Both the position numbers and the translations under genes were made by a program. The notes under the pieces are model-generated. The model was not told the origin of the DNA. It worked only from the letters and a program-made list of their open reading frames with translations, and did no database searches. Positions 14,706-37,390 of a stretch of 55,656 bases of DNA are shown in pieces (position 1 is the stretch's first letter; every line of letters begins with the position of its first letter). Origin of the DNA: Candidatus Omnitrophota bacterium (lineage in GTDB: Bacteria; Omnitrophota; Gorgyraeia; Zapsychrales; Fredricksoniimonadaceae); the NCBI GenBank assembly GCA_015232565.1, contig JADFZK010000015.1:1-55656 (forward strand). The letters are read 5' to 3'.

Positions 14706-16325
14706 ATGAAAGAAAACGTTAAAGAAAAAGATAAAGTGGATTTCCAGCAGGATCTCGACAAGCTGATCGAGTCCGGAAAGAAAAAGGGCGGTGTGCTGAC
14801 CTATGACGAGGTCAACGAAACCCTCTCCGGCTCGATTGATTCGTCCCAGGAGATCGACCATGTCTTCGAGATCCTCGACGGCAAAGGTATCCGCGTGGTG
14901 GATTCCGATGACGACGAGAAAGAGAAGCCGGTGGCCGAAGAAGGCTCCTCCGAAGCGGAAGAGACCCGCGAACAGCAGGTGCGCCGGGTGCGTGAGGAAA
15001 GCCGCGAGGACGATGTCTACGCCGACAAATTCATTCCGCTTGACGATCCGGTGAAGATGTACCTTAAGCAGATGGGTTCTATCCCGCTTTTGACGCGCGA
15101 CGAGGAGATCTCCCTGGCCAAGCGTATCGAAGAGGCCGAGAAGCGTTTCTCGGAGTCCCTGTTCGTTAACGGCTATGCGCGCAAGGAAGCGATGGGTATC
15201 ATCGAGAAAACCTTGAAGCAGGAGATCAATGTTGAGGATGTGGTAAAGGACGAACTTGAACGCCGCCCCATGCTCCTTAAGGACCTGGCGCGTATTCTGG
15301 ATAAGGTCAAGCGGGCCAAGGGCGGTACGCCGCAGAGCGCGCGGATGGTTTCGGAGTTTAAACTGACGGCCTCGGTGAATGAACAGATCATCGGCCGGGT
15401 CAATCAGATCATGGATGGTATCCAGTATGCCGACCGCCAGCTGGCCATGAAAAAGCCGCCGGTGCCGCGCAAGGAGATCGAAGACCGCCGCGCCAAGCTG
15501 GTGAAGGACCTGGGCGAGCCGCTGGGCAAGGTGCGCGAGCAGTTGCGGGTCATCAAGATCCGCCAGTCGCAATTTAACAAGGCCAAGAAGCTTTTGGTCG
15601 AGGCTAACCTGCGTTTGGTGGTGTCTATAGCCAAGAAATACATTAATCGCGGTTTGTCGTTCCTGGACCTTATTCAGGAAGGCAATATGGGGCTTATTCG
15701 CGCGGTGGAAAAGTTTGAATACCAGCGCGGGTACAAGTTTTCGACGTATGCCACCTGGTGGATCCGCCAGGCCATTACCCGTTCTATTGCCGACCAGGCG
15801 CGGACCATCCGTATCCCGGTGCATATGACCGAGACGATCAACAAGATCATCCGTATTTCGCGCCTGTTCGTGCAGGAATATGGCCGCGAACCTTCTTCGC
15901 CCGAGATCGCCAAGCAGATGCGGATCCCGATCGCGAAGGTTAAAGAGATCATGAAGATCTCCCAGGTGCCGATCTCGCTCCAAACGCCCATTGGCGATGA
16001 AGGCGATACGCATTTCGGGGATTTCATTGAGGATAAAAAGGCAGTTTCTCCGGCGACGGCTACTTTGCATTCCATGCTGAAAGACGAGATCGGCGGAGTG
16101 CTGGAGACTCTCGACGAGCGCGAACGCAAGATCCTGGAACTGCGGTTTGGCATCGTAGACGGCACCAGCCGCACTCTTGAGGAGGTAGGTTCGGAGTTCA
16201 ATGTTACGCGAGAACGCGTGCGCCAGATCGAGTCAAAGGCCCTGCGGAAGCTGCGTCACCCGACCCGTTCCCGGAAGCTAAAAATGTTCCTGGACATGTC
16301 GGCGAAGGATGATTATGTGATCTGA
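14706..16325 (+). CDS. rpoD: Primary sigma factor RpoD (sigma-70)
   Basis: Housekeeping sigma factor of 539 aa. The ATG at 14706 is preceded by GCGGAG at 14691-14696. Region 1.1 (about 15-65), region 1.2 ([12 protein letters not shown]), region 2 ([40 protein letters not shown]), region 3 and region 4 ([20 protein letters not shown]) are all present. A non-conserved insert separates 1.2 and 2, as in many group 1 sigma factors. The stop codon lies inside the 5' arm of a perfect palindrome (16319-16347), the first of three hairpin modules in its 3' UTR. Confidence 0.97.
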
Positions 16326-16394
16326 AAAGCCTACGGCTTTTCAGATCATCCATCAAGCCACCTGAGGCCTAAAAGGCCTCGGGGCTTGAGGGAT
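16319..16394 (+). repeat. Hairpin module A (RCCTG/CGG family)
   Basis: First part: perfect palindrome gatctgaaaagcc-tac-ggcttttcagatc (16319-16347), overlapping the rpoD stop codon. Second part: two-tier hairpin with a 12-bp outer stem (16348-16359 with 16383-16394, one A.G mismatch at position 5), then ACCTG (16360-16364), a 6-bp inner stem AGGCCT around an AAA loop, and CGG (16380-16382). The 75 bp at 16325-16399 recur exactly at 16474-16548. Confidence 0.85.
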
Positions 16395-16400
16395 CGAATT

Positions 16401-16468
16401 AAGCCTACGGCTTTTCAGATCACTCCTCACCCCGCCTGGGCCCCAACAGGGCCCGGGGGGTGAGGAGT
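16401..16468 (+). repeat. Hairpin module B (RCCTG/CGG family)
   Basis: The palindrome is a partial copy of that in module A: the 3' arm is kept and the 5' arm shortened. The two-tier hairpin has a perfect 12-bp outer stem (16422-16433 with 16457-16468) unrelated in sequence to module A, then GCCTG (16434-16438), inner stem GGCCC (16439-16443 with 16449-16453) and CGG (16454-16456). Confidence 0.8.
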
Positions 16469-16473
16469 CTTAT

Positions 16474-16543
16474 AAAAGCCTACGGCTTTTCAGATCATCC
16501 ATCAAGCCACCTGAGGCCTAAAAGGCCTCGGGGCTTGAGGGAT
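16474..16543 (+). repeat. Hairpin module C, near-copy of module A
   Basis: Bases 16474-16548 equal 16325-16399 without a mismatch. The 5' arm of the palindrome is shortened because the upstream bases derive from module B rather than rpoD. The hairpin occupies 16497-16543 with ACCTG at 16509-16513 and CGG at 16529-16531. Confidence 0.85.
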
Positions 16544-17329: not shown

Positions 17330-17433
17330 GGACTGAAATTTTGGGCCTATAGGTTGAGTCCCGCGAAGCGGGACGAAACCCCCGAAGGGGGTCAGTCGCT
17401 GGAAGTACATGGACTTAAATTTTGGGCCTATAG
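17330..17433 (+). repeat. Direct repeat duplicating the tRNA 5' end, with a hairpin insert
   Basis: The 23 nt at 17330-17352 recur at 17411-17433 with one mismatch; the second copy includes the first 10 nt of the tRNA (GGGCCTATAG). The 58 bp between them hold two hairpins, gtcccgcgaagcgggac (17358-17374) and cccccgaaggggg (17380-17392). This looks like an insertion with target duplication, or a local duplication. Confidence 0.75.
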
Positions 17434-17497
17434 CTCAGTCGGTTAGAGCAGGAGACTCATAATCTCTTGGTCCCAGGTTCGAGTCCTGGTGGGCCCA
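17424..17497 (+). tRNA. tRNA with CAT anticodon (tRNA-Ile2 more likely than Met)
   Basis: A complete cloverleaf: acceptor GGGCCTA (17424-17430) with TGGGCCC (17490-17496), D-loop AGCTCAGTCGGTTAGAGC, anticodon loop CTCATAA with CAT at 17458-17460, T-arm GGTTCGAGTCC, and discriminator A at 17497. CCA is not encoded. The anticodon stem-loop context (GAGACTCATAATCTC, then TTGGTC) resembles the lysidine-modified tRNA-Ile2 more than elongator or initiator tRNA-Met. Confidence 0.93.
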
Positions 17498-17571
17498 GAT
17501 TGAAAAGGATTCTTTTCAATCTGTCCATAAGGCCGCCTGGCGAGCGAACAGCTCGCCGGGGCCTTAGGGGC
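17497..17571 (+). repeat. Hairpin module D (RCCTG/CGG family), abutting the tRNA 3' end
   Basis: Palindrome agattgaaaag-gatt-cttttcaatct (17497-17522), starting at the tRNA discriminator base. Then a 12-bp outer stem (17523-17534 with 17560-17571, one A.G mismatch at position 5), GCCTG (17535-17539), inner stem GCGAGC (17540-17545 with 17551-17556) and CGG (17557-17559). Total length 75 nt. Confidence 0.87.
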
Positions 17572-17588
17572 AGGAAACATTGAATTAG

Positions 17589-17663
17589 GCTCCCGCCGCT
17601 CCGAGGCTCTGATGGAGCCTCAGGCAGCGGCGGGAGCAAATTTGAAAGAATTCTTTCAAATTT
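17589..17663 (-). repeat. Hairpin module E (RCCTG/CGG family), abutting the tRNA-Val 5' end
   Basis: The same 75-nt layout on the minus strand. Palindrome aaatttgaaag-aatt-ctttcaaattt (17638-17663) ends exactly at the base before tRNA-Val. A perfect 12-bp outer stem (17626-17637 with 17589-17600), GCCTG read on the minus strand (CAGGC at 17621-17625), inner stem (17604-17609 with 17615-17620) and CGG (CCG at 17601-17603) follow. Only 17 nt separate it from module D. Confidence 0.87.
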
Positions 17664-17738
17664 GGACACATAGCTCAGTTTGGTTAGAGCGTTGCCCTCA
17701 CATGGCAGAGGTCGAAGGTTCAAGTCCTTCTGTGTCCA
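17664..17738 (+). tRNA. tRNA-Val (CAC)
   Basis: Acceptor GGACACA (17664-17670) with TGTGTCC (17731-17737), D-arm AGCTCAGTTTGGTTAGAGC, anticodon loop CTCACAT with CAC at 17699-17701, T-arm GGTTCAAGTCC, and discriminator A at 17738. CCA is encoded at 17739-17741, unlike in the neighbouring CAT tRNA. Confidence 0.95.
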
Positions 17739-17815
17739 CCATTTTTCTTCCACTAGCGGTAAATTTCTTTCCCTTAGGGAGAAATTTACCGCAATATGAG
17801 AAAAGAAAAATGGTG
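17737..17815 (+). other. Long two-part stem-loop from the tRNA-Val 3' end
   Basis: Outer arms of 13 bp: CACCATTTTTCTT (17737-17749) with AAGAAAAATGGTG (17803-17815). Inner arms of 13 bp: GCGGTAAATTTCT (17756-17768) with AGAAATTTACCGC (17780-17792). The 5' arm begins in the tRNA CCA region, so pairing would compete with or guide 3'-end maturation. The T5 run could instead act as a terminator. Confidence 0.65.
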
Positions 17816-18250
17816 TCCTGTGAGGGCGTCCGTCCCGAACAGGACACTTGTATTAGGATTCATTAATGTTTTATTCGATCTCAAGATCGCTTATTGGAAA
17901 TGAAGAGAAACGGTGTTCGGTGAGGGCTCCGTCCCGAACAGGACACTTGTATTAGGATTCATTAATATTTTATTCGATCTCAAGATCGCTTATTGGAAGT
18001 GAAGAAGAACGGGGTTCGGTGGGGGCGTCCGTTCCGAACAGGACACTTGTATTAGGATTCATTAATATTTTATTCGATCTCAAGATTGCTCATTGGAAAG
18101 AAGAAAAGTGGCGTCGGTGAGGGCGTCCGTCCGAACAGGACACTTGTATTAGGATTCATTAATGTTTTAATCGATCTCAAGATCGCTCATTGGAAAGAAG
18201 AATAGTTTTATCCGGTTAGGGCTTAGTCCCTAACGGACACTTGTAGTGCA
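17806..18250 (+). repeat. Tandem repeat, about 97-100 bp unit, about 4.5 copies
   Basis: The motif ggacacttgtattaggattc begins at 17842, 17941, 18041 and 18138; a shorter fifth copy (ggacacttgta) begins at 18235. Each full unit holds a hairpin just upstream (a gttcgg...ccgaac type stem) and the palindrome cgatct-ca-agatcg. In the fifth copy the hairpin has changed to gttaggg/ccctaac with pairing kept. The stretch 17816-18309 contains no credible gene. Confidence 0.85.
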
Positions 18251-18309
18251 AGAAAGATATTTTTGAGAAAATTAATTTTGATGGGTTTGTTCATCCGAAA
18301 GGTAGCTAC

Positions 18310-19035
18310 GTGGTCGCTCAGAATGTGAAGGAAGTTATTCGTAAGCTTGTGGCAATGCAGAAGATCGACGAGGAGTTATTCGCTTTCCGCCGTGAGATCC
18401 GCCAGAAACCTGAAGAACTCGCCCAGATCAAGGCGCGTTTTGATAATAAAAAAGATCTGCTGCACAAACTGGAAGCGCATGCCAAAGAGCTGGACCTGGC
18501 GCGCAAGGCCAAAGAACTTGACCTTAAGTCCAAAGAGCAGGACATGATCAAGGCGGATGTCTCTTTGATGCAGCTTAAGAACAACAAAGAGTACCAGGCC
18601 CGTTTGTTTGAGATCGAGAACATGAAGGTCGATAAGGCGGCGATCGAGGAAGATATCCTTAAGTTCATGGAGGAGTCCGAGAAAGTTGCCAAGCAGATCG
18701 AGGCGGAGAAAGCCGTGGTCGCGGTTGAGGAAAAGAAGTATCTGGCCGAGAAAGACAAAGTGGATGCTGCGGTTCAGAAGTTGACCGAAGATTCCAGCGG
18801 CCTAGAGTCCCGGCGTCGGGAAGTGATGATAGCGATCGATAAGGAGCCCCTGGCGCTTTACGAGCGGATCGTCGAGAACCGCGACGGAGTGGCTATGGTG
18901 CCGGTGGTCAATAACGCCTGCGGCGGTTGTTTCATGCATTTACCCGCCCAGGTTATAAACAAGATCAAGAAATACGACGGCCTGGTGCGCTGTGAGATCT
19001 GTTCGCGCCTGCAATATCTTCAGGAAGACCTGTAA
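18310..19035 (+). CDS. Zinc-ribbon coiled-coil protein (COG1579 / CT398-like)
   Basis: A 241-aa protein with a long central coiled coil (residues about 20-170, rich in K, E, D and L). A C-terminal four-cysteine zinc ribbon has CGGCFMHL near residue 203 and CEIC near residue 229. This is the layout of the conserved COG1579 family, whose cellular role is not settled; nucleic acid or secretion-linked roles have been suggested. Start is GTG at 18310, with a poor ribosome-binding site. It is one base upstream of the RNase H gene, so the two are co-transcribed; the same pairing is common in bacteria. Confidence 0.88.
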   Translation: MVAQNVKEVIRKLVAMQKIDEELFAFRREIRQKPEELAQIKARFDNKKDLLHKLEAHAKELDLARKAKELDLKSKEQDMIKADVSLMQLKNNKEYQARLFEIENMKVDKAAIEEDILKFMEESEKVAKQIEAEKAVVAVEEKKYLAEKDKVDAAVQKLTEDSSGLESRRREVMIAIDKEPLALYERIVENRDGVAMVPVVNNACGGCFMHLPAQVINKIKKYDGLVRCEICSRLQYLQEDL

Positions 19036-19036
19036 T

Positions 19037-19447
19037 ATGCCGGTCTACGAGATCTTTACGGACGGTGCTTGCAGCGGCAATCCCGGACCGGCGGGGATCG
19101 GGGTTTATATAATGAAAGACGGCGTGGTGGTCCGCGAGGTTTCCGAAGCGATCGGGCCGGCCACGAATAATATCGCTGAGTATCGGGCTTTTATCCGCGG
19201 TCTGGAAGAAGCCGGGTTGCTGGGTGCGGAACATGTGCAATTACGCACGGACAGTCAGCTTTTGTATTTTCAGTTAAAGGGTGATTACAAAGTCAAGCAT
19301 CCGAATATGAAGCCTCTGCATGCCGAGGCTCTGCGTTTGTTGAAAGGGTTTAAAAAGGTTGAATGTAAAGTGGTGCCGCGCGAGGAGAATACTCACGCTG
19401 ACCGCCTGGCAACCTCGGCGTTGAAGCCGCAGTGTTCTTTTTTATAA
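19037..19447 (+). CDS. rnhA: Ribonuclease HI family protein
   Basis: A 136-aa enzyme expected to cleave RNA in RNA-DNA hybrids. Catalytic acidic residues are visible in FTDGACSGNPGPAG (Asp about 8), NNIAEYRA (Glu), LRTDSQLL (Asp) and THADRLA (Asp). It lacks the basic protrusion typical of E. coli RNase HI and resembles the shorter YpdQ-like subgroup. Start at 19037, one base after the previous stop. Its stop codon is followed directly by hairpin module F and then rnpB. Confidence 0.9.
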   Translation: MPVYEIFTDGACSGNPGPAGIGVYIMKDGVVVREVSEAIGPATNNIAEYRAFIRGLEEAGLLGAEHVQLRTDSQLLYFQLKGDYKVKHPNMKPLHAEALRLLKGFKKVECKVVPREENTHADRLATSALKPQCSFL

Positions 19448-19521
19448 GTCCAGATAACCCCGATGGCCAGTTGGCCATCAGGTGGTTCTCTGGATGCTTT
19501 TAAAAGAATCCTTTTAAAAGC
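19448..19521 (-). repeat. Hairpin module F (RCCTG/CGG family), filling the rnhA-rnpB gap
   Basis: Minus-strand module of 74 nt. Palindrome gcttttaaaag-aatc-cttttaaaagc (19496-19521), outer stem 19484-19495 with 19448-19459 (10 of 12 pairs), ACCTG (CAGGT at 19479-19483), inner stem ATGGCC (19463-19468 with 19473-19478) and CGG (CCG at 19460-19462). It begins right after the rnhA stop codon and ends one base before the RNase P RNA. Confidence 0.82.
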
Positions 19522-19930
19522 ATCAATCCATAGACGGTCGCCCTGATGTTTTTTCATTGGGGAGGAAAGTCCGAGCTCCACAGGGTAATGCATCCCGCTA
19601 ATACGGGACCATTGGCGGAGAGTTTTGTGAGAACAGAACTGCCGCCTTCGGGATCAGAGCCACAGAGACGAGCCTTTGGTGTCGGGGGGATTTCTTCCCG
19701 GTAAAGCGCCGCGCAAGCGGCACGCATTGAAGGGGTGAAACGAGGCAATCTCTGCATGGAGCAAGGCCAAACAGGGGGCAATGAGGTTACCCGCCTCGCG
19801 CTTCCGGGTAGGCCGCAAGAGTCCCGCGGGCAACCGGGGGAGTTAGTCAGATGGCCGTCCACCTGCGGCGCAAGTTCACGCAAGTGCCTTGTGCTTTTGG
19901 GGGAACAGAACTCGGCTTATGTGGATTGAT
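19522..19930 (+). ncRNA. rnpB: RNase P RNA, bacterial class A
   Basis: The catalytic RNA that trims tRNA 5' leaders. The diagnostic conserved segment GAGGAAAGTCCGAGCTCC is at 19561-19578 and the late conserved ACAGAACTCGGCTTATG at 19906-19922. Helix P1 is visible as ATCAATCCA (19522-19530) with TGGATTGAT (19922-19930), which sets the ends. Its 5' end abuts hairpin module F. Several short antisense or sense open frames across it are chance. Confidence 0.93.
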
Positions 19931-20003
19931 ACTTTATTTGGGGTAATATCCCGACAACGGGCAAATTTTGGTTTTTTATAAATAGTAAAACGGAGGCAGT
20001 ACA

Positions 20004-32938: not shown

Positions 32939-35900
32939 ATGAAAAGAATGATCGCATTTTTAGTACTGTTAATGTTCGTGGCCAGTACGGTTATGCCGCC
33001 ACAGGGCTTTGCCCAAACGCTGAATGCGTTGGGGCTCATGCCTCAGCCCGGCGTGCAGGTGGGGCTGACCCCGGCCTTTACGCCCGCGCATTTACGCGGC
33101 ATGGCCATTCATCCCAATGACCCCTTCAAGTTCGATTTTATAGTGCACCGCGGGGATGAAACCCTTTCCAACGACCAGAAGCAGGTGGAGTACCCCAAGC
33201 TCATAAAATACTTTTTGGCCGCTTTGGCCATTCCCGATGAGAACCAGTGGGTTAACTTGAGCCCTTACGAGAAGGACCGCATTATTCCCGACGATTACGG
33301 CCTCACCGAAATGGGCCGCGATGTTCTGGCTCAGGATTACATGTTAAAGCAGATCTCGGCTTCCCTTACCAGTCCCGACTCCGCGCTGGGCAAAAAGTTC
33401 TGGGATGCGGTTTACGAAAGGTCATTCCAGAAATTCGGTACTACCGATATCCCGACCGACACGTTCAGCAAGGTCTGGATCATGCCCGACAAGGCGGTTA
33501 TATTCGAAAAGGGTAATAACGTAGTGGTGCTCGAACATCATTTAAAGGTCATGCTGGAAAGCGATTATCAGGCCATGAAGCAAAGCCGGCCGGAAAGCGC
33601 GCTGACGGCCGATGACACCGCAGCCGCCCGCATTTCCAAAGAAGTTATGCGCGAAGTGATCCTGCCCGCTATCGAAAAAGAAGTTAATGAAGGCCGGAAC
33701 TTTGCGCCTTTGCGCCAGATCCACAACAGTATGTTGCTGGCCGCCTGGTACAAGCGCGCTTTAAAGGACTCCATTCTAAATAAGGTTTACGGCGACCGCG
33801 CCCGGGTCAAGGGTATCGACCAGGACCCTAAAACGAACCAGGCGATATACGACCAGTATGTTACCGCGCTCAAAAAGGGCGTGTTCAACATGATAAAGGA
33901 AGACGTGGACCGTTTCTCCCAGGAAGTCATCCCGCGCAAGTATTTCTCCGGTGGAGATAATGCGGCAGGTATGGTTTATGATGAACCGGGAACAGTGCAA
34001 ATCTTCAGGAATGCAAACGGCGAAATTGTTCGAGCGGTCGCAAGTATGAGGCCAGACCTCGATTTGCTTAGAACACAGCTTGTGTCGTCCGATTCGCCTG
34101 TCAGGAATATCCCTGTTGATTTTGTAATTGAGGGCACTCCCCAGGCAGTCCCGATAAGGTTAGCGCTTAATAGCTTCATTCCTGCGCCGCGAGCGAGGTT
34201 AGAAGTCAAGCGTCCATTGTTTGTTCCCCAGGTAAATCCGAATCCGAACCCTGGGGTAAGGTTGGAGGGCGATCGTGCCGCGATCAATGTCGCCAGTATA
34301 CAGACTTTCTTCGATAAGAACGTTAATGCCGGCGCACTCAATACAGGAAGAAAGGCTCAGAATGGTTCCAGGGCGAGGTTTGAAATTAGAGAAACTACTG
34401 AAAGTTTAACGGGAAGTGATGCTCGTAATGGCATTGGTTTTAGTGCGAATGTTGCTTCTGTCGATGGAGTGGAGATCTACACGTATACGGTAAATCCTAA
34501 TCAATCCGGTTTTCTGGCCGCGGTCTTCTTAGCATTGGTGGAAGCGGATCTAAAAACAACCCGGAATGCATTCGGCGGCGAGGATCATAATTCATATTTG
34601 GGACCGCGTTGGGCTACTGTGACCAACGAGCAAATGGCGAGAGTCCTCGAGCCTATTGTAGAGAGGCTTTCTGTGGAGCAAGAACGAGAGTCTTTAAGAG
34701 ATACTTATTCGGCATGGGGGCTAAGCATTCGGCCACCAGGCTCGGAATATCAAAGGCCTTTCGATGAGCCTCGTCGCCCTAGATATTATAGAGATTATGC
34801 CGCGGCCATGTCGTCTGCGGAGTTTCGGCAGATGCGGCAAGGCGATCTGCTTACGGCTTTGCTGGCGGCCCAGCATGAAATAAACGCGACCACTATACAA
34901 GCCCTGGCGGTCTTGATTCGCGCCATGGGGGATCTGGGGCCTAATGAATATGCCAACATGGTCTTGAATGGAGATATTGCTCCGGAGACTATTGTTAATG
35001 GAAGGCGGCGGGCTGCGTTGAGCACTGAAAGTCACACTGTGCGTTATATTTACAATGTTGTTTCGACTGAAGGTGCTATCGAGAAAATGTTGCAAGATCC
35101 AATAGCGATGGATGAATTACAGCAAAGGGTCAGGAATCTGATTGGATATATAAGAACGGAACAAAGCAGTCGCATTAAATATGCCCTGGTGCGGAATCTG
35201 GTTATTGTTTTGGGAGATACTAATCCTGTGGTGATGCCGACAGAGCCGTTTCTTAAGCGTATGCTGTTAGCATTAAAGAATAATGCAGGCATTGTTATCT
35301 CGCCGAGCATGGAAGAACTGCATGGTGATGGTACATGGGATATATTAGTTGCACAAATGATCGAGCAGATGAATGCGGAGGCGGCGTATCTGAAGGCGAA
35401 TAATAGACCTATGCCCGGATCGCGTTTCGACCGGATCCTGAATATCCTCGACCCTTGGGTGCGCGCCGAGACTGCGCATCGTGCTGATGTGCATCCCCGC
35501 AAGATCGTGGAGGTTGCAGATGGCGTAGATCCTAAAGGTCTTATGGATCGTTTTGTCGGTTATGTGAATAATGTTGTTGCTAGTCCGAACTTATCCGGAA
35601 AGAGTGTATACGGGTTGAAGATGAGCCGTAAAATGGCCACGGAAGGCGAGTTCGGTCTTAAGTATTTACGAAATGCATTTGCGGGTAATTTTAAAGTTAC
35701 GATCAAGGTGTATGCGAGAACGGAAGACACTATTACGTATAGCATAACCGTGGACCATTCGGCCAGTGTGCCTGGAATGACGATTATTGACGCTTCTGAT
35801 CCTGTTGAACGGGACAAAAGCGTGGATACGTTTGTTGATTCGGTGCGTCAGATCGCTTTAAATGTTGATAGGCGCGGCAAGGAAGAAGTTGGACTAAAGA

Positions 35901-37390
35901 TAAACATTGGTCGGGCTACGGCAAAAACCGAGAAGACTAAGGTTGGGCCAGTTCGATATGATTTTGATGCACGCAAAGCAGCTGTATTGTTCGCTATCAG
36001 GGCAAGATTAAGGGGACTGCCTGATGTGACTATTGATTCTTCTCGGGAGAATCGAGAGACCGGGGAGCTCGTGATCGTGGCAACCGTGGACCATTCGGCC
36101 GAAGTTGAGATGATTGAAGCTATCGATGGCAATTTGAATCCATTTCTGAGCAAAGTTAGGGAGTTGGTTAATACCAGTATATTTGACAGAAAGCAGGATG
36201 TAATTGGTGTCAGGATACATATTAAGCCGGATCTGTTGGATGCCCGGCAGCCTGCGGATATTCTTGCATCAACCAATTTTCAGCAAAGATTACAGCAAGA
36301 GACTAAGTTAGTAGAGAACGCGGTGCTGGATATAGCGCCTAAAGCTGTTTTCTACTATAATGGCATTGATCCAAAGTCGGGTATTGTTAATATCGTTGTA
36401 ATAGTTGACGCTTTCGCTAGTGTAGGTGTTGACTATGTTGTTAACAAGGCAAAGGAAGCTGTGGCAATATTTAAGGGTGAGAGGGCCAAGGCAACAATTG
36501 TCCAAAGAATAATAAAAGAATTAACGGATCACTTTCAGGGTGGGCGAAGAGATATTAATTTTTTGCCGTCCAGGTTGGAAGAATACTTTTCGCAAGAGTT
36601 AGGTGTGAGTATTTTTGGACGGGGCGCTCTTTCTGCTGATGCAGGATTGAAGGCTGAAGGCAAGGTGTTAAAGTGGTTGGGGGTTGAAATCGCAGAGATT
36701 ACAGATAAGGGGATAGTAGTTTTTGATGCGAATATGCCGCTGTTCGTGGACAAGTTGAGAGAACATCTTGAGCAGAGGTTTGGCTTCCAATTAGGGGAAG
36801 CAGCTTTCCCTAGAGGTATCGTCGATGCCGTTAATAAGGCAAAGGAAGCTGTGGCAATATTTAAGGGTGAGAGGGCCAAGGCAACAATTGTCCAAAGAAT
36901 AATAAAAGAATTAACGGATCACTTTCAGGGTGGGCGAAGAGATATTAATTTTTTGCCGTCCAGGTTGGAAGAATACTTTTCGCAAGAGTTAGGTGTGAGT
37001 ATTTTTGGACGGGGCGCTCTTTCTGCTGATGCAGGATTGAAGGCTGAAGGCAAGGTGTTAAAGTGGTTGGGGGTTGAAATCGCAGAGATTACAGATAAGG
37101 GGATAGTAGTTTTTGATGCGAATATGCCGCTGTTCGTGGACAAGTTGAGAGAGCATATTGAGAAGAGGTTCGGTCTTAAACCAGAGCAAGTCGATTATGC
37201 TGCTGGTGATAGTGGTCCTCAACGAGGTGGTATCGATTTTGCCCAATCGTCACTGGACATGCAGATCCGGCGCGATGGAGCGGGGGTGCCTCTGCCGGTC
37301 AGTCAGCAGAACCTGGACGGCATCCGTATCAACGGCCTGGTGCCGGTGATACTCAGCATAACCTCAGCGGAGGGGTTCCTGAAATTCTAA
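32939..37390 (+). CDS. Giant secreted protein, paralogue 3 (RKYFSGG family), 1483 aa
   Basis: Strong AAGGAGG and a clean signal peptide (MKRMIAFLVLLMF to GFAQ). The shared N-terminal domain ends at RKYFSGG, about residue 333: FDFIVHRGDE, WVNLSPYEKDRII, TEMGRDVLAQDYMLKQ, EKEVNEGRNFAPLRQ. The region after about 890 contains diverged repeats of an alpha-beta unit marked by ITVDHSA and ATVDHSA. Near the C-terminus a 130-residue unit is present twice (about 1169-1274 and 1299-1404 identical). The last 60 residues (GGIDFAQSSLDMQIRR) match the C-terminal domain of the paralogues. Probably a periplasmic or cell-surface protein; function unknown. Confidence 0.88.
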   Translation: MKRMIAFLVLLMFVASTVMPPQGFAQTLNALGLMPQPGVQVGLTPAFTPAHLRGMAIHPNDPFKFDFIVHRGDETLSNDQKQVEYPKLIKYFLAALAIPDENQWVNLSPYEKDRIIPDDYGLTEMGRDVLAQDYMLKQISASLTSPDSALGKKFWDAVYERSFQKFGTTDIPTDTFSKVWIMPDKAVIFEKGNNVVVLEHHLKVMLESDYQAMKQSRPESALTADDTAAARISKEVMREVILPAIEKEVNEGRNFAPLRQIHNSMLLAAWYKRALKDSILNKVYGDRARVKGIDQDPKTNQAIYDQYVTALKKGVFNMIKEDVDRFSQEVIPRKYFSGGDNAAGMVYDEPGTVQIFRNANGEIVRAVASMRPDLDLLRTQLVSSDSPVRNIPVDFVIEGTPQAVPIRLALNSFIPAPRARLEVKRPLFVPQVNPNPNPGVRLEGDRAAINVASIQTFFDKNVNAGALNTGRKAQNGSRARFEIRETTESLTGSDARNGIGFSANVASVDGVEIYTYTVNPNQSGFLAAVFLALVEADLKTTRNAFGGEDHNSYLGPRWATVTNEQMARVLEPIVERLSVEQERESLRDTYSAWGLSIRPPGSEYQRPFDEPRRPRYYRDYAAAMSSAEFRQMRQGDLLTALLAAQHEINATTIQALAVLIRAMGDLGPNEYANMVLNGDIAPETIVNGRRRAALSTESHTVRYIYNVVSTEGAIEKMLQDPIAMDELQQRVRNLIGYIRTEQSSRIKYALVRNLVIVLGDTNPVVMPTEPFLKRMLLALKNNAGIVISPSMEELHGDGTWDILVAQMIEQMNAEAAYLKANNRPMPGSRFDRILNILDPWVRAETAHRADVHPRKIVEVADGVDPKGLMDRFVGYVNNVVASPNLSGKSVYGLKMSRKMATEGEFGLKYLRNAFAGNFKVTIKVYARTEDTITYSITVDHSASVPGMTIIDASDPVERDKSVDTFVDSVRQIALNVDRRGKEEVGLKINIGRATAKTEKTKVGPVRYDFDARKAAVLFAIRARLRGLPDVTIDSSRENRETGELVIVATVDHSAEVEMIEAIDGNLNPFLSKVRELVNTSIFDRKQDVIGVRIHIKPDLLDARQPADILASTNFQQRLQQETKLVENAVLDIAPKAVFYYNGIDPKSGIVNIVVIVDAFASVGVDYVVNKAKEAVAIFKGERAKATIVQRIIKELTDHFQGGRRDINFLPSRLEEYFSQELGVSIFGRGALSADAGLKAEGKVLKWLGVEIAEITDKGIVVFDANMPLFVDKLREHLEQRFGFQLGEAAFPRGIVDAVNKAKEAVAIFKGERAKATIVQRIIKELTDHFQGGRRDINFLPSRLEEYFSQELGVSIFGRGALSADAGLKAEGKVLKWLGVEIAEITDKGIVVFDANMPLFVDKLREHIEKRFGLKPEQVDYAAGDSGPQRGGIDFAQSSLDMQIRRDGAGVPLPVSQQNLDGIRINGLVPVILSITSAEGFLKF
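36446..37152 (+). repeat. Perfect 317-bp intragenic duplication, 390-bp period
   Basis: Bases 36446-36762 and 36836-37152 are identical at every position as read here, including third codon positions. The period is 390 bp (130 codons), so the frame is kept. The 24 residues between the copies (HLEQRFG...) are related to those after copy 2 (HIEKRFG...) but have diverged. Confidence 0.95.

Follow-up and report, generated by a model that had tools for sequence, protein, structure and literature searches.

Group IIC introns and attC-targeting elements insert beside DNA hairpins, for example terminators and attC sites. REP and REPIN sequences, which occur with RAYT (TnpA-REP), are short, dispersed, extragenic imperfect hairpins presumed to be mobilised in trans in single-stranded form (PMC3116915, PMC8266576). 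In IS608, a tetranucleotide target is chosen by base pairing (PMC5934647). The repetitive or double hairpin elements of fungal and sponge mitochondria are described as intergenic paired hairpins often lying near tRNA genes, with movement inferred (PMC2800124). Here, a family of short modules from the bacterial phylum Candidatus Omnitrophota is compared with these systems.

The analysed stretch of 55,656 nucleotides (the window) is contig C36 of an assembly (G000) of 80 contigs, 2.64-Mb and 94% completeness, and its rpoD relatives place the source genome in Candidatus Omnitrophota. The window was searched with a rule composed of outer stem, RCCTG, inner stem, loop, inner stem, CGG and outer stem. 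Six modules, A to F, and no others were found in the 55.7 kb:

16318-16348, + strand: palindrome of module A, TGATCTGAAAAGCC-TAC-GGCTTTTCAGATCA, with the rpoD stop codon (16323-16325) inside
16349-16393, + strand: bulged hairpin of module A
16403-16467, + strand: module B, palindrome core and right arm (arm as in A) with a differing hairpin at 16423-16467
16478-16542, + strand: module C, palindrome core and right arm with a hairpin at 16498-16542 identical to that of A
17496-17523, + strand: palindrome of module D, starting on base 72 of tRNA-Met(CAT)
17524-17570, + strand: hairpin of module D
17590-17636, - strand: hairpin of module E
17637-17664, - strand: palindrome of module E, ending on base 1 of tRNA-Val(CAC)
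19449-19494, - strand: hairpin of module F, 2 nt past the rnhA stop codon (which ends at 19447)
19495-19522, - strand: palindrome of module F, adjoining the RNase P RNA (19523-19933, by Rfam)

A preliminary description had placed the modules exactly at the ends of genes and structured RNAs, and the coordinates of A, D, E and F bear this out to within one base. The overlap of module A with the rpoD stop codon was correctly noticed, as was the polarity of the window modules, with the palindrome on the gene side and the hairpin facing outward. Module D was said to begin at the discriminator base of tRNA-Met; it begins close by, one base before A73 (17497). Similarly, module E was thought to end just before tRNA-Val and ends on its first base (17664). 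The position of module F directly before the RNase P RNA holds, while its abutment to the rnhA stop codon is a consequence and not the target, because in the three relatives checked the rnhA reading frame extends into rnpB for about 20 codons (window 19417-19550; L058, L059, L061). From this sequence comparison, module F would have entered at the rnpB edge, replacing or cutting off the rnhA tail.

The unit is about 73-75 nt long and consists of a palindrome directly followed by a bulged hairpin. Across an alignment of 35 modules drawn from several genomes, palindrome length is fixed at 28 nt, made up of an 11-nt arm, a 6-nt core and a second 11-nt arm; the core is mostly GGATTC and also GAATTC or GGATCC. 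The hairpin starts immediately after the palindrome. Its outer stem has 11 bp; next comes a bulged purine (R), then two C-G pairs, another bulged base (N) and one G-C pair, and the inner stem, about 6 bp long, carries a loop of 4-5 nt. Both conserved bulges lie on the 5' strand. Double changes were observed in 12 of 12 palindrome pairs and in 19 of 20 hairpin pairs, values never reached by shuffles, and the outer arm positions of the palindrome vary freely with compensation. The internal loop was modelled as two single bulges 2 bp apart, which leaves 97.6% of cells paired; the alternative of a 2-nt bulge with C-U-G/C-G-G pairs was set aside at 96.2%. Single-stranded DNA folds into this structure with z-scores of about -9 to -10, and strong hairpins form on either strand. 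The palindrome core occurs 29 times in the genome versus 3 times for the reversed control. Arm lengths are bimodal genome-wide, reaching about 11 nt beyond the core in modules and no more than 4 nt at most of the remaining AAGGATTCTT sites. In arrays, the core, right arm and hairpin are repeated and the left arm is present once, on the gene side. The unit contains no gene, and no second (right) end was recognised in it. Two near-identical copies in genome G003 (L148:1501-1575 and L155:120-194) have the 6-nt core inverted (GAATCC versus GGATTC).

Like REPs, the modules are short, dispersed, extragenic, imperfect hairpins (about 29 loci, 44 matches). They differ in having two unlike hairpins and a palindrome which follows the target edge. 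GTAG was absent from the hairpin foot in all 35 aligned modules, and none of the Y1 genes inspected was flanked by module hairpins. The modules are not REP members by the tests made. The ends of IS200/IS605 elements are similar in that a hairpin with extrahelical bases is preceded by a target-pairing sequence, and the modules are likewise fixed in polarity, with no target duplication seen at host repeats. The pairing extends over 11 nt against 4 in IS608, and neither an internal Y1 transposase nor a right-end hairpin was seen. The modules seem to work like a REP/IS200 end with extended target-guide pairing. Unlike group IIC introns, they carry no intron RNA; a group II intron or reverse transcriptase partner was rejected since PF00078 (RVT_1) is absent from the two richest genomes, G000 and G015. 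The rigid 28-nt frame (11+6+11) recalls Xer/dif sites, but no conserved recombinase-arm sequence is present. The mitochondrial double hairpin elements differ in that the modules are bacterial, and neither an exact gene-edge register nor a target-matching arm is described for them in the available part of the source (PMC2800124). Except for tRNA and RNase P, no Rfam family matched above the gathering score, and searches of the literature gave no description of such modules.

A covariance model built from five of the six window modules gave 44 raw matches in the whole genome. By hand these represent about 29 independent loci, counting each array as one and adding one truncated copy recognised by its core. 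A search of 384 genomes showed patchy spread: modules are many in G000 and G015 and scarce or absent across most of the family, and isolated matches come from two further families within that order or class. These copy counts are lower bounds because scoring covered 12 candidates per genome. A pattern scan of IMG/VR with the canonical module gave zero matches. When the region was compared with plasmids by BLAST, the matches listed were confined to its tRNA parts.

The genome possesses 42 tRNA genes, of which 13 directly adjoin a module at one edge (the 3' edge in 8, the 5' edge in 5) and 29 have none. Simple arithmetic (29 loci, 84 tRNA ends, within 2 nt) predicts about 0.005 such cases by chance. 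A fourteenth module adjoins a duplicated 5' fragment of tRNA-Pro. The other 15 loci lie at the 5' edge of rnpB (1), at T-tracts of intrinsic terminators (5), at the stop codons of rpoD, groEL and a SecD/SecF gene (3), at Shine-Dalgarno-like sites on the opposite strand (3, with a clear adjacent gene in two) and within other repeats (2), and one was unplaced. When the frame was fixed by the hairpin alone, 20 of 21 tRNA-adjacent modules from several genomes began at -2 to +1 from the tRNA edge, and in these 20 every tRNA-owned base inside the palindrome was paired by the right arm (31/31). The exception has a 26-nt palindrome, paired in its own frame. At 5' edges the start coincides with base 1 in all six modules with a 28-nt palindrome. 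The module strand is that of the tRNA at 3' edges and the opposite one at 5' edges, with no exception in those examined; module polarity goes with the edge of the gene and not with its transcription. Genome-wide, the modules are thus found at gene edges and not at random distances from them, and the observation is real, non-random and genome-wide.

Evidence of movement came from two host repeats with filled and empty sites. The first is GAGCGGAGC^GAGTTG in G000, compared between contigs C50 and C32, and the second is CGCGNAGGT^TTAGACC in G015, filled five times and elsewhere empty. In both, the entire unit including both arms is extra, the host resumes after the hairpin, no target-site duplication is seen and the left arm did not belong to the site before insertion. 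Both D and E are missing from G001, where the tRNA-Met/tRNA-Val spacer is 22 nt, and module A is absent from the rpoD 3' flank in G001 and G003. Decayed palindromes without hairpin remain at rpoD and tRNA-Met in G002 and at tRNA-Cys and tRNA-Val in G001. These empty and filled sites and decayed copies, together with the patchiness and the tandem arrays, speak for a mobile DNA element that is non-autonomous. Counted against mobility, a similar module with compensated changes is common to G000 and G015, which belong to different genera, at the 5' edge of tRNA-Tyr, and this could reflect long maintenance in place.

The gene-owned edge bases are always complemented by the right arm, which is the arm beside the hairpin. 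The opening eight bases at rpoD, TGATCTGA, are native, being identical in G002 and G019; G001 has TGATTTGA. When modules at the same site in different genomes were compared, left-arm identity was 0.77 against 0.53 for shuffled pairs (p = 5e-5) and outer-stem identity 0.52 against 0.50 (p = 0.34), with tRNA-Pro sites dominating this test. In the rpoD array, the three right arms are identical while hairpin B differs from A and C. By the same-site test and this array, the palindrome is a property of the site, whereas the hairpin is not. The gene-owned bases and the same-site test support copying of the left arm, unlike the two host repeats, which contradict pure left-arm copying at insertion; the non-native left arm there implies that simple target copying does not explain everything. 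The pattern reads as target-guide pairing plus later matching, by template-switch correction or selection. A stronger version is tentative and rather unlikely, namely that the element, on or after insertion, takes up the target edge as an inverted copy (about 11 nt), giving each module a private palindrome derived from its neighbouring gene, and is moved by a putative hairpin-reading enzyme.

It is reasonably probable that the modules represent a short mobile DNA element, non-autonomous and targeted to edges with fixed polarity through arm-target pairing and an enzyme that reads the hairpin. Such an element would enter at a gene or hairpin edge with its palindrome end joined to that edge. The filled and empty sites point to the insertion event itself, and the fixed polarity is seen in many copies. 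A hairpin-reading enzyme acting on single-stranded DNA would recognise the bulged hairpin, and joining would take place where the right arm, just 5' of the hairpin, pairs with the target over 11 nt, like an IS200/IS605 guide. The arm may be matched to gene-owned bases during insertion or afterwards by template-switch correction or selection. Against this explanation, some targets (stop codons, Shine-Dalgarno sites, loops of other repeats) do not clearly represent the foot of a hairpin. The search for a partner enzyme gave no candidate, and the Y1 genes inspected in the lineage have other hairpins next to them.

The preliminary description had offered both RNA processing or end protection and a mobile element targeting gene ends. 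In the former, palindrome and hairpin would act in the transcript, defining or shielding the ends of tRNA, RNase P RNA and mRNA. The abutment to RNA ends is exact, hairpins are strong on both strands, base changes are compensated and some sites follow terminators and stop codons, all as an RNA signal would have it. However, the orientation mirrored between the 5' (antisense) and 3' (sense) edges of tRNAs fits a DNA-level edge rule and not a signal for transcript processing or stability. Moreover, the palindrome cells comprise 417 Watson-Crick pairs, 2 G.U and 1 mismatch (total 420), against 155, 12 and 1 (total 168) in the acceptor stems of 24 tRNAs of these genomes, and this near-absence of G.U intermediates argues against an RNA-processing signal. 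With modules also lying inside other repeats and missing from 29 of 42 tRNA genes in the same genome and from most relatives, the RNA proposal is not supported and we hold it unlikely; a side effect of the modules on RNA ends may occur. The mobile element, the other suggestion, has gained from the dispersed and patchy copies, clean filled and empty sites, arrays, decayed copies and the edge survey. Very improbable in our view is that selection maintains the modules at gene ends as bidirectional terminators or gene insulators. They do sit at gene edges, and some palindromes (GCC-NNC-GGC core, A/T runs) are like short terminators. But five lie directly behind a complete intrinsic terminator, the AAGGATTCTT core has no GC-rich stem, and a fixed 28-nt length with conserved bulges is not typical of terminators.

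The remaining alternatives concern the moving agent, and both appear quite improbable. A REP/REPIN family moved by the RAYT (Y1, HUH) transposase of the lineage would account for dispersed extragenic hairpin repeats, and RAYT-like genes (Y1, REP type) occur in many relatives, with one frame-broken copy in G000 (contig C2; L363:598-1149). The lack of GTAG at the hairpin foot speaks against it, and RAYT presence does not track module number across genomes. Y1_Tnp was rejected as partner since the inspected RAYT-like genes adjoin other hairpins or REPs; the G000 copy has GTAGGGGCGGGTT...AACCCGCCC repeats in and around it. No better placed is a tyrosine-type recombinase site, in which the 28-bp palindrome (11-6-11) would be a dif-like crossover with hairpin cassettes added at its centre. 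The conserved 6-nt core within this frame, arrays repeating from the core outward, the sharing of one palindrome by different hairpins at rpoD (A/C versus B) and at the tRNA-Pro 5' edge, and the inverted core of the L148 and L155 copies agree with such a site, but the arms are nearly free beyond an inner AAG, which suits a sequence-specific recombinase poorly.

If the mobile, edge-targeted element is right, it represents a bacterial repeat with a structural target rule (gene edges, ends of RNA genes) and an 11-nt match between its own sequence and the target, an extended form of IS608-type pairing, in a phylum without laboratory genetics. Some exact tRNA 'end elements' would then be mobile DNA, not RNA signals, and there would be a marked route toward finding the responsible enzyme.

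Several other repeats were observed in these genomes. In G015, the family AACCGCGNAGGTT ... AACCTNCGCGGTT with GCCGAAGGCGGC repeatedly hosts modules at one fixed position (L125, L130, L132, L134, L052). After tRNA-Met, G003 and G010 (L088 past 3307; L095 past 2730) carry a different element of about 130 nt, which ends with a copy of the tRNA 3' part (GAGTCCTGG...). In the window (17343-17436), a direct repeat of the tRNA-Met 5' end TTTTGGGCCTATAG lies about 78 nt upstream, with two small hairpins in the intervening stretch, and in G000 (L004) the tRNA-Pro 5' end is likewise duplicated (from 1572) before the intact tRNA at 1674. These duplications look like another small element duplicating tRNA 5' ends. 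Downstream of tRNA-Val, a 97-100 nt repeat forms four tandem copies (17829-18223), and a 300-nt direct repeat, 98% identical, lies at 36424-37113 inside one large ORF (32939-37390).
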